From a virus: 59,242 nt of DNA. Position numbers and translations under genes: made by a program. The notes under the pieces are model-generated. The model searched no databases. It saw only the letters and a list, made by a program, of their open reading frames with translations, and had not been told where the DNA came from. Where the stretch lies: positions 1 to 59,242 of IMG/VR virus record IMGVR_UViG_3300046170_000277. The stretch is one strand, 5' to 3'. Within the stretch, counting starts at the first letter, position 1; each line of letters begins with the position of its first letter. Below, one piece after another: positions 8,705-55,143 of the stretch.

Positions 8705-9277
8705 ATGATTAATTCAATCTCTGAAATTGTAAGACACACCATCCAGCCACATGGATTTCATGCTGGAACACCCTGCAGCATGATCAGACTTGCTGACTCT
8801 CCAGGCTTTGGTGTGGTGGCAGTGGAACTGCAGGAAGTGCTGCACAATGAATGGGTGGTTCTGAAAGGAAGGGACACTGAAGCACTCACCCATCCAGATA
8901 TAGATGCAGTCATTCATCTGCTCAGAGGATGGGGCAAGCGTGTCATTCTGGAAACCAATGGAACTGTGGACTATGATCTGCGAAAGGTCATGAACTGCTG
9001 GAAAGTGCTGACACCCAAGGAACACCTGGGAACTTCTGAAGTGAAGGAGAACTGGTGGGAACGTGCCAATGAAGTCATCATCACCATCAGAGATGAACAA
9101 GACTTCAAACACTATGAAGACAGACTCTGTGAAGCACCCAATGAACAGGAAATCTGGTTGCAGCCCTTTGGAATGAATCCAGTGGAAGAATCAAAGGAAA
9201 TCATGTTCATTCTGGAAAAGTATTCCTGGTTTAAGTATCAGCCAGAAACCAGGGAAAGACAGGTGTACCCAACATGA
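8705..9277 (+). CDS. QueE-like protein lacking radical-SAM cysteines
   Basis: A 190-residue homologue of 7-carboxy-7-deazaguanine synthase (QueE), the radical-SAM enzyme of the queuosine/archaeosine and phage 7-deazaguanine pathways. Preserved in order: ISEIVRHTIQPHGFHAGTPCSMIRLA (QueE: SEIFxSIQGEGxxxGxPxxFIRL), RVILETNGT, WKVLTPKEH (VSPK), WERANEVI, IWLQPF, and a C-terminal WFKYQPETR where QueE has WRLSxQTHK. Missing: the CxxxCxxC iron-sulfur motif, replaced by DSPGFGVVAVE, and GGEP, here GRDT. The region between IRLA and the GGEP position is also short. It should therefore not perform radical-SAM chemistry and may bind a deazaguanine ligand or a partner protein. It is the first gene of the head operon, overlapping the next gene by 4 nt. 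No folE, queD or queC homologue is visible in the window. Confidence 0.75.
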   Translation: MINSISEIVRHTIQPHGFHAGTPCSMIRLADSPGFGVVAVELQEVLHNEWVVLKGRDTEALTHPDIDAVIHLLRGWGKRVILETNGTVDYDLRKVMNCWKVLTPKEHLGTSEVKENWWERANEVIITIRDEQDFKHYEDRLCEAPNEQEIWLQPFGMNPVEESKEIMFILEKYSWFKYQPETRERQVYPT

Positions 9278-9861
9278 AAAATGATGTGACCTGGGTGGAC
9301 ATCCAACACGTTCAGCCCTGTGATTGGAACTATAAGCTGGAAGGCACACCAGAAGAACTGGAGAAGCTGAAGAATTCCATCAGCAAAGATGGCTCTGTGG
9401 GTGTGCTACCTGTCAGAACCATCAAAGGTAAAACCCTGGAAGTCATTGATGGAAACCACAGACTGCAAGCACTTCAAGAACTAGGCTGGACTCAGGTGCC
9501 TGTGGAAAACTTTGGATCCATTTCAAAAGCTGAAGCCATCACCATTGCCAGAAGAAGAAATGAAGAGTGGTTCCAAACCGATCCATTCAAATATGCAGAA
9601 CTACTGAAGAATGATGTGCTGACTGAATTCAGCCTGGAGGAACTGACCAACTTCATGCCAGAATCAGAAGCACAGATGAAAGCCCTGCTGGAATCACTAG
9701 ACTTCAACCTGGATGATGAAGAACCACCAGCCAGTGAAGGCAATCATCATGACACTGCCATGCGTTTCATCAGATTGGCTGTGCCAGAAAACAAGGCTGT
9801 GGAGTTTGAAGAGGATTTGAAAGACTTCCTTCAGCAACACCCTGACGTTCAAATGAAATGA
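9274..9861 (+). CDS. ParB/sulfiredoxin-fold protein 1
   Basis: A 195-residue protein with the ParB N-terminal (ParB/Srx) fold: VDIQHVQPCDWN, a P/LPVR strand, and the nucleotide-binding/nuclease signature VIDGNHRLQALQELGW around residues 50-65. Helices follow, then an acidic linker (LDDEEPPASEG). The C-terminal EFEEDLKDFLQQHPDV is shared with the next gene, so the two are tandem paralogues. ParB-like phage proteins of this size occur near terminases and DNA-modification genes and may bind CTP or cut DNA. ATGA overlap with both neighbours. Confidence 0.85.
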   Translation: MKNDVTWVDIQHVQPCDWNYKLEGTPEELEKLKNSISKDGSVGVLPVRTIKGKTLEVIDGNHRLQALQELGWTQVPVENFGSISKAEAITIARRRNEEWFQTDPFKYAELLKNDVLTEFSLEELTNFMPESEAQMKALLESLDFNLDDEEPPASEGNHHDTAMRFIRLAVPENKAVEFEEDLKDFLQQHPDVQMK

Positions 9862-10427
9862 AAAAAGAAACACTAGCTGAATTCCTTTTGACCACCAGGA
9901 TTTTTCCCAATCCCTGGAATCCAAACAAAACCAGCACACGTGTAGATGCTGCCATTCTGGAATCTATCAGAAAGTATGGCTTCATTGATCCAATCACAGT
10001 CAGACACCATCCCACTGAACCCTTCTGCTATGAAGTCATTGATGGTGAACATAGATTGGAAGCAGCACAAACCCTGGCACTGCACCAGATTCCTGCCATT
10101 GTGCTGAATCTGAATGATGCTGATGCCAAAAGCCTGACCATTATAGCCAATGAAACACGTGGAAGGGCTGATGATATTGCTCTGGGGTTACTACTTGAAG
10201 AACTGCAGGATGAAGCTGGTGATGGTGCACTGGTGGGCCTGCCCTATTATGACCAGGAAGTGGAAGAACTGATTCAGAAAGCCCATGCCCAAAACAGTGA
10301 ACCTCTGGAAGTGGAAGCACTGCCCAGACGTGTGACTATCAAACATCCAGCCCTGGGCTTCAATGAATTCATCACTGATCTGCAGGCATGTTTGCAGAAT
10401 CACCCTGGTGCTACTCTGACCATTTGA
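9858..10427 (+). CDS. ParB/sulfiredoxin-fold protein 2
   Basis: A 189-residue paralogue of the preceding protein. Visible motifs: FPNPWNPNKTS, ILESIRKYGFIDPITVR, the ParB signature VIDGEHRLEAAQTLALHQIP, and a C-terminal LQACLQNHPG similar to the neighbour's end. The signature has GEHR here and GNHR in the neighbour; the first is the more usual form. It may form a heterodimer with the neighbour. It lies 4 nt before TerS, so it is part of the packaging operon. Confidence 0.85.
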   Translation: MKKETLAEFLLTTRIFPNPWNPNKTSTRVDAAILESIRKYGFIDPITVRHHPTEPFCYEVIDGEHRLEAAQTLALHQIPAIVLNLNDADAKSLTIIANETRGRADDIALGLLLEELQDEAGDGALVGLPYYDQEVEELIQKAHAQNSEPLEVEALPRRVTIKHPALGFNEFITDLQACLQNHPGATLTI

Positions 10428-10431
10428 GCCT

Positions 10432-11142
10432 ATGGCAGAAACAAAAACACGTTCACGTTCAAATAGTTTGGATGATACTGCCAGGAAGAAACGCTTTGAG
10501 CAGTTGAAGAATAAGGGAAGGGTGACGCAATACGAATTTTGGGTGGAACCCTACCTGGAAGAAATCAGCACCCTGGCCAAGTTTGGATGGTCAGATAAAA
10601 GGATTGCAGAACACCTGACTGTTTCACCAAGTGCTTTCATCCAATACAAGAAAAAGCACCAAGAACTTTTTGAAGCGTTGACTGAGCACAGAACTAGGGG
10701 AATTTCTCAGATACTGAATTCTTTGGCACAACGTGCAGAAGGATACGATTACGAAGAAAAGCTGGTTCAAGCCACTAATGACCCAGGAACTCAACGGGTA
10801 ACAAGGCAGACAACCAGAATTACAAAAAAACACGTTGTTCCAGATACTGCTGCAGCTAAGATTCTGCTGGACGTTCACCCAGATGCTGACCACTTCAAAC
10901 GCTCTGATGGTTTCAGCATAAAAGAGATCAGCGAACACACCACCAGGATCTATGATTTGCGTGATGAACATGGCTGGAATGCTGCCAGAACTGCCAGGGA
11001 ATTTGAGAAGATTGGAATGAAGCTTCCAGAATCCTTGAAGATGGAAGTGAAGCATGAACTGGAAGTGCAGGGTGTTGATCAGTTACCCACTCCAGTGATC
11101 AAAATCATGATGAACGAAACTGAAGACAGGCTTGACGCTTAA
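10432..11142 (+). CDS. terS: Terminase small subunit
   Basis: A 236-residue DNA-recognition subunit of the packaging motor. Residues 40-75 hold the HTH typical of TerS (ISTLAKFGWSDKRIAEHLTVSPSAFIQYKKKHQELFEALTEHR), then an oligomerisation-type helix and a GYDYEEKLVQ ... RVTRQTTRITKKHVVPDTAAAKILLDVH strand and helix region. It directly precedes and overlaps the large subunit, as in most tailed phages. The pac/cos recognition site is not evident. Confidence 0.85.
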   Translation: MAETKTRSRSNSLDDTARKKRFEQLKNKGRVTQYEFWVEPYLEEISTLAKFGWSDKRIAEHLTVSPSAFIQYKKKHQELFEALTEHRTRGISQILNSLAQRAEGYDYEEKLVQATNDPGTQRVTRQTTRITKKHVVPDTAAAKILLDVHPDADHFKRSDGFSIKEISEHTTRIYDLRDEHGWNAARTAREFEKIGMKLPESLKMEVKHELEVQGVDQLPTPVIKIMMNETEDRLDA

Positions 11143-12410
11143 AAATTCACAAAACGTGGATGGAGCAAGGGCAGACCGTGACACGGTTATCAGACCACTG
11201 AGCCACCAGAAGAAGGCACTGCTATCGAAAAAACAGGAAATCTTCCTGGGTGGTGGTGTGGGTGCAGGCAAAACCCAAACAGGTGCCATCTGGGTGCTGC
11301 TGAAGTGCATGGAAACGCCACTGGATGTCTATGGGCTGATTGTTTCAAACACCTATTCCATGATCTATGACACCAGCCTGCGTGTGTTGTATGAGAAGCT
11401 TCAATCATCTGGGATGGTGGTCAGGCCAGCAGAAATGCCACGTGGACGTGGGCCAGCAGACATCCTGGTCTGGAATGGATCCCACTATGTGAGGAATCCT
11501 GGTCAGAAGCCTGGAACACTATGACCGATTGAGTGGGTTGGAAGTTGGGTGGATCTGGACTGATGAAGTGTGGCTGACCAAGCCAGAAGCAATTGATGTT
11601 CTGAATGCACGTTTGCGTGATACCAGGATGGAGAACAGGCAGATCCTTTTCACCACCACCTTGGATGCACCTGACACTTGGATGCACCAAAGGTTCGTGG
11701 AGAAGTTCAACCCAGAACTTCAAGATGTGATTTATGCCAGAACTGCTGACAATCCACATCTGCCAGAAAACTATGTGGAAACACTGAAAAGCACCTATTC
11801 AGAAGCCATGTTCAAAAGAATGGTGCTGAGTGAATGGGTAACGCTGGACACAGACCAAGTTTACTATGCGTTTGACAGGAAGAAGCACGTGGCACCTGTG
11901 GAGCCAGAAAACAATCTGCCACTGTTATGGGCGCATGACTTCAATCTAAGCCAGGGCAAGCCCATGAGCAGTGCAGTGATGCAGTACCACCACCAGTCTG
12001 AAACATTCACCATCATTGATGAAATCATAATTGATGGAGGAAACACCCATGATTCAGTGGATGAATTCCAGAGCAGATGGGCAGACTGGAAAGCTGGTGT
12101 GATCATCTATGGTGATGCCACTGGAAATTCCAGAGACACCAGGAGCAGAACCACTGACTTTGAAATCATGAGGCAGGCAGGATTCAGAAACCAGAAGGTG
12201 CCCAGAGCCAATCCACCTGTCAGGGAACGCCACAACTGTGTGAACGCTTTGCTGGAAGATGCCACTGGACGTGTGAGGATCCAGGTGCACCCAAGATGTA
12301 AGACCGTTATCAAAGGCTTTGAAACCACTGCACTGAAAAAAGGCTCCAGATATTTGGAAGATGACAGTAATCGCAACCAGCACGTTTTAACTGCAGTAGG
12401 TTATTGCTGA
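11132..12410 (+). CDS. terL: Terminase large subunit, one apparent frameshift
   Basis: ATPase-nuclease that drives DNA packaging. The first part (to about 11493) has the Walker A GGGVGAGKT; the second, in the +1 frame, continues VRSLEHYDRLSGLEVGWIWTDEVW with Walker B/Glu, a motif III-like ILFTTTLDAP, and the nuclease domain (LLWAHDFN, IIDEIIIDGG, VIIYGDATG, ending QHVLTAVGY). Neither half is complete alone. The frames join if one G of GTGAGGAATCC near 11490 is surplus, giving a 425-residue protein of normal length. Start TTG 11132 overlaps TerS by 11 nt. The C-terminus is short but includes the last conserved helix. Confidence 0.9.
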
Positions 12411-12541: not shown

Positions 12542-13202
12542 ATGGACAAAGTCAGAAGAAACATCTGGTGGAAGTGGTACAAGCCAGTGAAGCAGGACTG
12601 TGTGGAAGAATGGCAGACGTTTGAGAATTTCCACACGTGGTACACAGCACAGGGAACAGATGGGCGAGTGACCAAGCTGGATCCCAGGAAGCCACATGGC
12701 CCTGACAACACTGAACTGGTGAAGGGCAGGAATGGGGAACAGTGCAAACGCAGGCTGGCCATCCTGGGGAACTGGAGAGTGATGCACAGAAGGGTGGCCA
12801 CCTTATGCCAGCTATGTGAAAAAAGGAATCCAGGTTTGCGAAGAATGGCAGACGTTTGAACCCTTCTACATGTGGGCATTAGACCAGGGATGGAAGAAGG
12901 GACTGCAAGTGGACAGGATTGACAACAATGGGAACTATGAACCAGGGAACTGCAGACTGGTGGATGATGTGACCAACAAGATCAATCGTGTTTCATGTCA
13001 GCAATACGCAATCATGACTTCAGATGGTGTGGTTCATCCTTCACTGTCAGCCTGCATGGAATACTTCAAAAACCGCAGTGACAGGGACATCACAGAATCC
13101 ATGAAAACAGGAAAGCATTTCTGGGACAGAAGGAACTGTGAACCTGGAATGAAACGAGGACGTGTTAAGGTTTACGCATACAGACAGGATTATCTAATTT
13201 AA
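12542..13202 (+). CDS. HNH endonuclease, apparent frameshift
   Basis: Read through one shift near 12790 (one surplus G in AGAAGGGTGG), this is a 219-residue HNH-type endonuclease. The second half carries the motif GIQVCEEWQTFEPFYMW ... GLQVDRIDNNGNYEPGNCRLV, as in phage homing HNH enzymes. The first half repeats the pattern in degenerate form (DCVEEWQTFENFHTW ... KLDPRKPHGPDNTELV), so the gene holds an internal duplication with one active copy. A C-terminal basic region (RGRVKVYAYRQDYLI) may bind DNA. It lies between terL and the portal gene, a common place for HNH genes that aid packaging or act as mobile introns. The gap 12411..12541 shows nothing else. Confidence 0.8.
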
Positions 13203-54156: not shown

Positions 54157-54387
54157 CTAGTTCTGAATGATCAAATCCTCCCATTTGAATCTGGTGCTAC
54201 AGCCAGGAAGTTCATCATCCAAATTTTTTCTGATACTCATTGGCAACTGGCGCATGGCTTGATTTTGAACTGTCTTGATCAGCTTGCCCTTGCTTGAATT
54301 CTGCAGCAAATTTTCCTCCACTTCCACATCCACCAGCACACTGGTCTGTTTCACCATTTCCACTGGAACACGTACCTGGATTTTCAA
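54157..54387 (-). CDS. Small hypothetical protein
   Basis: A 76-residue protein from TTG 54387, behind a strong GGGAGG 4 nt upstream and overlapping the H-N-H stop (TTGA). KIQVRVPVEMVKQTSVLVDVEVEENLLQNSSKGKLIKTVQNQAMRQLPMSIRKNLDDELPG; a beta-hairpin and helix pattern. The frame is open further upstream (54438) but without an equal Shine-Dalgarno. No family recognised. Confidence 0.65.
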   Translation of the reverse strand: MKIQVRVPVEMVKQTSVLVDVEVEENLLQNSSKGKLIKTVQNQAMRQLPMSIRKNLDDELPGCSTRFKWEDLIIQN

Positions 54388-54905
54388 GCGGCCTCCCTGG
54401 TTCTGCGATTGTTGTTTTGCGTCTTTGCATCTGCCCACCTGAGATTTCCTGGTTCATAGTTTCCATCATTGTTGATGCGGTCTAATGAATGGCCATCTGG
54501 TCTTGGGCCAAGCTTGGTTTCTATCCATGTGACAAAGGCTTCTGCATCATTGAACCACGCAGGATCCATTTGAATGCCACGTCCACCATAGTCTTTGAAG
54601 CGTTTGTGATTTGGGTTGGTGGTTATTTGTTTGATCCGATTCCAGATTGAGTACAAACGGTGATATGCTAGGCCATGCTTTGTGGCATACTGCTGACCTT
54701 TATGCCTTTCAGAAGTGAGTTCACGTTGTAAGCAGCCACAGCTTTGAGTTTTGCCACTTCTAAGAAGCCTTCCATCTACAACTTTCATGGTTCCACAATC
54801 ACACTGGCAAAGCCATTTAGCCATACCACGTTTGCTGTTTTCGGCACGTTCCAGAACCACCAATCTGGTGAAGAGTTTTCCAGTTAAGTCTTTTAATGCG
54901 CTCAT
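54384..54905 (-). CDS. HNH/AP2-type homing endonuclease
   Basis: A 173-residue protein from ATG 54905. N-terminal CxC-x(n)-CGC zinc cluster (LCQCDCGTMKVVDGRLLRSGKTQSCGCLQRE), then HGLAYHRLYSIWNRIKQI, YGGRGIQMDPAWFNDAEAFVTWIETKLGPRPDGHSLDRINNDGNYEPGNLRWADAKTQNNNRR, the standard phage HNH homing enzyme. The frame runs open 228 nt upstream and encodes a Cys-rich stretch without a clear start; the gap 54906..55143 holds nothing else recognisable. Likely a selfish gene. Confidence 0.88.
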   Translation of the reverse strand: MSALKDLTGKLFTRLVVLERAENSKRGMAKWLCQCDCGTMKVVDGRLLRSGKTQSCGCLQRELTSERHKGQQYATKHGLAYHRLYSIWNRIKQITTNPNHKRFKDYGGRGIQMDPAWFNDAEAFVTWIETKLGPRPDGHSLDRINNDGNYEPGNLRWADAKTQNNNRRTREAA

Positions 54906-55143
54906 AATTTCAGAAGTAGTTTTGGGTGGGGTAGAAGCAGGACAGCTTGGAAGACGTAGGCAGAAGTGGATGTCACAACATAAACACCCACAAAATCTTC
55001 TGTATTGCTTTGGCACAACATGGGTTCCAGATGGCCGATAGCTTGACATCTGGCAGATAAAAAAGCCTTGGCCCTGCTTCCTATCAACCACACCAGGGAT
55101 TACTGTCAAAAAGAAATGCAGTGATGTGGTCAATTCCTGGTAT

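Follow-up and report, generated by a model that had tools for sequence, protein, structure and literature searches.

The window analysed here is a stretch of 59,242 nucleotides of viral DNA, positions 1 to 59,242 of IMG/VR record IMGVR_UViG_3300046170_000277. It contains a rightward run of genes headed by a QueE-like gene, which is followed by two ParB-like genes, the genes for the small and large terminase subunits (TerS and TerL), the portal gene and further structural genes. A preliminary description, made from the letters alone, had placed the QueE-like gene first in the head operon, in agreement with this order. The run begins as follows:

8705..9277, forward strand: QueE-like protein without iron-sulfur cysteines, 190 amino acids, ATG start (viral QueE HMM, hhalign, AlphaFold model, codon usage)
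9274..9861, forward strand: ParB-like protein 1 (Pfam ParB_N, 1.2e-7; PHROG_723, 1.8e-18)
9858..10427, forward strand: ParB-like protein 2 (Pfam ParB_N, 6.8e-14; matched by the island ParB of locus L007, 1.4e-39, 42% identity)
10432..11142, forward strand: TerS, next in the run (PHROG_309, 1.2e-23; related to the TerS of locus L006, 2.5e-22)

The stop codon of the QueE-like gene and the start codon of the first ParB-like gene share 4 nt (ATGA, 9274-9277), and an overlap of the same length joins the two ParB-like genes. The QueE-like frame has a codon-usage score of 0.262, similar to those of the neighbouring genes, whereas none of the other five frames exceeds –0.04. Scans for promoters and terminators gave matches at chance level only.

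Several other features of the window were recorded. An integrase gene and, behind it, a tRNA-Arg (tct) gene at 1732-1806 lie within positions 482-1806; this arrangement suggests that the phage is temperate, with a tRNA as attachment site. The TerL gene (11132-12410) is interrupted near 11478-11500 and continues in another frame, in contrast to its uninterrupted relative in L006. The break may reflect a programmed frameshift, a mutation, or an error of sequencing or assembly. A group I intron in the terminase region was considered and rejected, as no Rfam match was obtained and TerL ends near the C-terminus of its relative. L002, picked up in the TerL scan, was discarded as a spurious match of 40 residues. 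Two HNH endonuclease genes are present, one at 54384-55133 on the reverse strand (PHROG_374, 2e-64) and one at 12816-13202 on the forward strand between TerL and portal, the latter recognised by eye only.

The landmarks that had led to the initial assignment as QueE (SEI, GFHAGTP, IRLA, ETNGT, TPK, ERANEV and LQP) were all found in the 190-residue protein. A Pfam search returned no match for it. Two general QueE profiles matched: PHROG_2076 (QueE-like radical SAM) at E = 3e-5, and TIGR04322 at E = 2.9e-7, the latter with 30 of 200 bits and thus far under the curated NCBIfam cut-off. A viral QueE HMM, built with the window protein left out, matched at E = 1.2e-20 in two pieces, residues 3-34 (profile positions 8-39) and residues 51-176 (profile positions 79-201). 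A comparison by hhalign with 19 viral QueEs gave a probability of 99.6% and E = 2.4e-24 over 174 columns. An AlphaFold model from the single sequence (pLDDT 40) was replaced by one based on a 38-sequence alignment, which reached a mean pLDDT of 87.9 and a pTM of 0.85. The only PDB matches of this model below E 1e-3 were four QueE chains (6NHL, two chains of 5TGS, and 5TH5), with TM-scores of 0.67-0.73 by query length. Because the input alignment consisted of QueEs, the model is consistent with a QueE fold rather than independent proof of it. Judged by sequence, the similarity to QueE is far above chance and the window protein is a QueE homologue by descent. The proposed kinship thus came through the profile and structure comparisons, where hhalign and the structure match led to QueE and neither to another family nor to a structure lacking the QueE core.

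With QueE, the 7-carboxy-7-deazaguanine (CDG) synthase (TIGR04322/PHROG_2076; PDB 6NHL, 5TGS, 5TH5), the window protein shares common descent and, as modelled, the overall fold, as well as the stretches QxxG...G.P...IRL, ETNG, (S/T)PK and LQP. Unlike QueE, it has no cluster cysteines and no GGEP, its N-terminal half is shortened, and the C-terminal QTH is replaced. Three stretches of the gene are of particular relevance:

8744..8788, forward strand: residues 14-28, with Gln14 and Arg28 kept and His16 in place of Glu15 (mapping; roles from PMC11142719)
8798..8854, forward strand: residues 32-50, shortened stretch at the CxxxCxxC motif and next loop of QueE (profile gap; mapping to E. coli QueE)
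8867..8884, forward strand: residues 55-60, GRDTEA at the position of the SAM-binding GGEP (alignment and mapping to E. coli QueE)

The cluster loop has been deleted, with 16 residues standing where the profile has 39 positions, and profile positions 40-78 have no counterpart. Neither CxxxCxxC nor a long-spaced variant occurs in the window protein. C31 of E. coli QueE aligns with Ser32; gaps stand opposite C35, C38 and T40, the last of which binds Mg. The loss of CxxxCxxC and GGEP described initially could be confirmed, with LADSPGFG standing at the first site and LKGRDTEA, a wider stretch around the GRDTEA given above, at the second. In addition, the glutamate of QGEG is gone (His16 is the equivalent of E. 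coli E15), and Arg183 takes the place of the QTH histidine. Among the 20 invariant columns of 19 related canonical QueEs, 10 are changed in the window protein, concentrated in QGEG, CxxxCxxC-D, GGEP and the late lysine. Gln14, Arg28, ETNG, (S/T)PK and LQP are conserved; Q13 and R27 of E. coli QueE bind substrate (PMC11142719). A frameshift artefact as the source of the missing motifs was rejected, since the other frames of the DNA show no hidden cysteine motif or GGEP. With the cluster loop missing and other residues in place of the catalytic motifs, no radical-SAM chemistry would be expected, and we infer that it is impossible by any known QueE mechanism. Synthesis of CDG by the window protein would likewise be excluded on these grounds.

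QueE is an iron-sulfur enzyme with which other viruses contribute to the disguise of their DNA. Phage islands for 7-deazaguanine in DNA, of the type QueE-QueD-FolE-QueC-DpdA-ParB, have been described by Hutinet et al. (PMC6884629), and DpdB, a member of the ParB family, is reported to usually accompany DpdA (PMC6392294, PMC12839542). We gathered viral loci by a ParB-based scan followed by a DpdA-based scan, and the sample is thereby biased towards these genes. Among the ParB-scan loci, the operon QueE-QueD-FolE-QueC-DpdA-ParB recurs, and terminase genes adjoin it where the loci were read that far. All six island families are present in 47 loci, some of which are overlapping cuts of one contig, and DpdA-ParB stands last in the most frequent gene orders. 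In a phylogenetic tree, the window protein is nested in the island QueE clade with support values of 97/97 and 100/98. Its end branch measures 3.62 changes per site (median 0.58) and its best identity is 30%; because of this long branch, its exact sister is uncertain. The window gene proved to be a former CDG synthase (QueE) gene from a viral DNA 7-deazaguanine island.

The window resembles these DpdA islands (PMC6884629) in its QueE clade, in a ParB relative with 42% identity and in the position before the terminase genes, which is found in some of the loci. Judging from its sequence, ParB2 of the window is related to the ParB of DpdA islands and would resemble the DpdB type. The window differs from the islands in carrying two ParB-like genes instead of one and in having no QueD, FolE, QueC or DpdA: multi-sequence profiles of these four families match none of its ORFs, although the record may be a fragment. 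Since the QueE-like protein is nested in the island clade and none of the four is matched, the pathway seems to have been lost from the phage lineage, which retained an altered QueE together with ParB-like genes before the terminase. Within the collected loci, only the window and contig L059 combine QueE-like and ParB genes in the absence of DpdA, and both are cysteine-less. A search of the entire L059 record, which may also be a fragment, likewise gave no DpdA. Regarding the suggested co-occurrence of such proteins with ParB-like pairs, a single ParB-like neighbour is common in viral QueE islands, whereas pairs are restricted to few loci.

A search for further phage members without the cysteines, as recommended in the preliminary description, was successful. 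Within about 80 non-redundant QueE-like ORFs of the collected loci, only the window protein, QueE-A and QueE-B lack the cluster motif among full-length proteins; the latter two are encoded by adjacent ORFs in both L059 and L094. Several other QueE-like ORFs of these loci carry long-spaced cysteine variants. The QueEs of L032, L049, L052, L124, HCTV-5, Cellulophaga and VH7D, considered as motif-poor candidates, were rejected on account of GGNP or long-spaced cysteine variants. QueE-A and QueE-B are encoded in tandem and followed by a phosphoribosyltransferase gene (L094:5183-6917; L059:824-2555). In L094, the phosphoribosyltransferase gene (Pfam 4.7e-16) overlaps the pair and is followed by FolE, DpdA, ParB and QueD; this virus also encodes a canonical QueE with CNLNCNFC and GGEP. 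The L059 contig likewise carries ParB and QueD. Between L059 and L094, dN/dS is 0.109 for QueE-A and 0.091 for QueE-B; because these values are about 0.1, like those of QueD (0.097) and ParB (0.150), QueE-A and QueE-B are genuine virus genes under purifying selection.

Both proteins resemble the window protein in the missing cluster cysteines and the nearby ParB. QueE-A differs from it in retaining GGEP and in falling into another QueE clade in the tree, and because of this separate position the cysteines were lost at least twice, independently in QueE-A. QueE-B has the shortened layout of the window protein and has also lost GGEP, but its similarity is marginal, with a weak link to QueE (66% probability) and to the window protein (60%). 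It is conceivable, though rather doubtful, that viruses with ParB/DpdA loci repeatedly made QueE iron-sulfur-free, as a partner of ParB-like (DpdB-type) proteins that contributes to 7-deazaguanine DNA handling as an accessory or successor component. Independent cases of one new pseudo-radical-SAM class would then be represented by the window protein and the L059/L094 pair.

Selection on the window gene itself is not measurable for want of a close relative: none emerged from a tblastn search of phage records, from pattern scans in which the window protein alone was run against viral and genome contigs, or from one in which the three-sequence cluster-less alignment was run against viral contigs. 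Such a lack of conserved relatives, the loss of every partner enzyme and the long end branch would fit a decaying relic without function, left behind by a modification island since lost, whose frame is still open by chance or because the loss was recent. Nevertheless, the 190-codon frame is intact with native codon usage, and its sequence, as modelled, still fits the QueE fold. Moreover, in neutral simulations with substitutions only, run to 30% identity, the reading frame was still open in 0 of 2000 cases, so that chance survival at such divergence is unlikely. We therefore regard a relic as an unlikely explanation.

We favour a different reading, because of the coupling of the genes and the history of the island. 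A QueE from a DpdA island has lost its cluster loop, its catalytic motifs have been replaced, and QueD, FolE, QueC and DpdA appear to have vanished from the lineage. The resulting pseudoenzyme would be co-produced with the two ParB-like proteins via the overlapping stop and start codons, and would most likely serve the ParB pair as a scaffold or non-catalytic subunit in a DNA transaction near packaging. Its old pterin/deazapurine pocket (Gln14, Arg28) may still hold a small ligand. In its entirety, from the former island QueE to an expressed pseudoenzyme partnering the ParB pair, we give this explanation a probability of roughly 0.4; its functional part is the tentative one. The QueE descent, the nesting in the island clade, the gene order and ParB relationship of the islands, the lack of matches to QueD, FolE, QueC and DpdA, the lost catalytic residues, the 4-base overlaps, the coding signal, the outcome of the neutral simulations, the cysteine-less QueE-like proteins beside ParB with their low dN/dS, and the reported company of DpdB and DpdA count in its favour. 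Against it count that the link to ParB is one of adjacency alone, that no close relative of the gene turned up in the collections searched, and that the nearest relatives of the packaging genes (L006, L015 and L016) carry ParB without QueE. In these relatives other cargo lies upstream of ParB, which in L006 (5464-5976) is a PDDEXK_14 nuclease (4.7e-15), so that this position may accept cargo in general.

Other functions can be envisaged for a protein of this kind. QueE enzymes are dimers, and the window protein might pair as a decoy or dominant-negative subunit with the active QueE of the host or of a co-infecting phage, thereby blocking or redirecting production of CDG and preQ0. L094, with cysteine-less QueE-like genes next to a canonical QueE, illustrates that both kinds can coexist in one virus. 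The divergence of the window protein (an end branch of 3.62 and a best identity of 30%) exceeds what would be expected for pairing with a foreign QueE, which makes such a decoy distinctly improbable. Equally improbable is a ligand sensor or carrier that binds the substrate or product of QueE, or else a purine or pterin related to these, and signals to the ParB-like proteins: Gln14, Arg28, ETNG, (S/T)PK and LQP are retained, but the pocket is altered at GGEP, at the QTH histidine and at the position equivalent to Glu15, and no other part of the pathway is present in the window. The preliminary description had also hinted at cell division. E. coli QueE blocks septation without a need for queuosine synthesis (PMC11142719). 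Inhibition by the E. coli protein requires C31, C35 and the region E45-W67 (PMC11142719). Because the equivalents of all of these are missing from the window protein, a role as cell-division modulator is disfavoured by homology, and we consider it very improbable indeed. The reading as a pseudoenzyme beside the ParB pair is the one we retain.

The iron-sulfur cluster is the defining feature of radical-SAM enzymes. In the open-access literature, we found neither a described QueE pseudoenzyme or catalytically inactive phage QueE nor a virus protein with the body of QueE minus the cluster, which is weak evidence of novelty. The earlier notion of a new kind of pseudo-enzyme stands as far as a cluster-less QueE-family protein is concerned; this protein is not the only one, as selected cysteine-less kin exist in phages. 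The window protein has probably been retained for a non-catalytic job. If such proteins are functional, they illustrate how a protein of nucleobase biosynthesis can come to act without catalysis close to DNA packaging, and they would offer a way into the so far unexplained association of ParB-like proteins with DpdA islands. With its conserved tandem pair next to an active-looking QueE, L094 makes this question directly testable.
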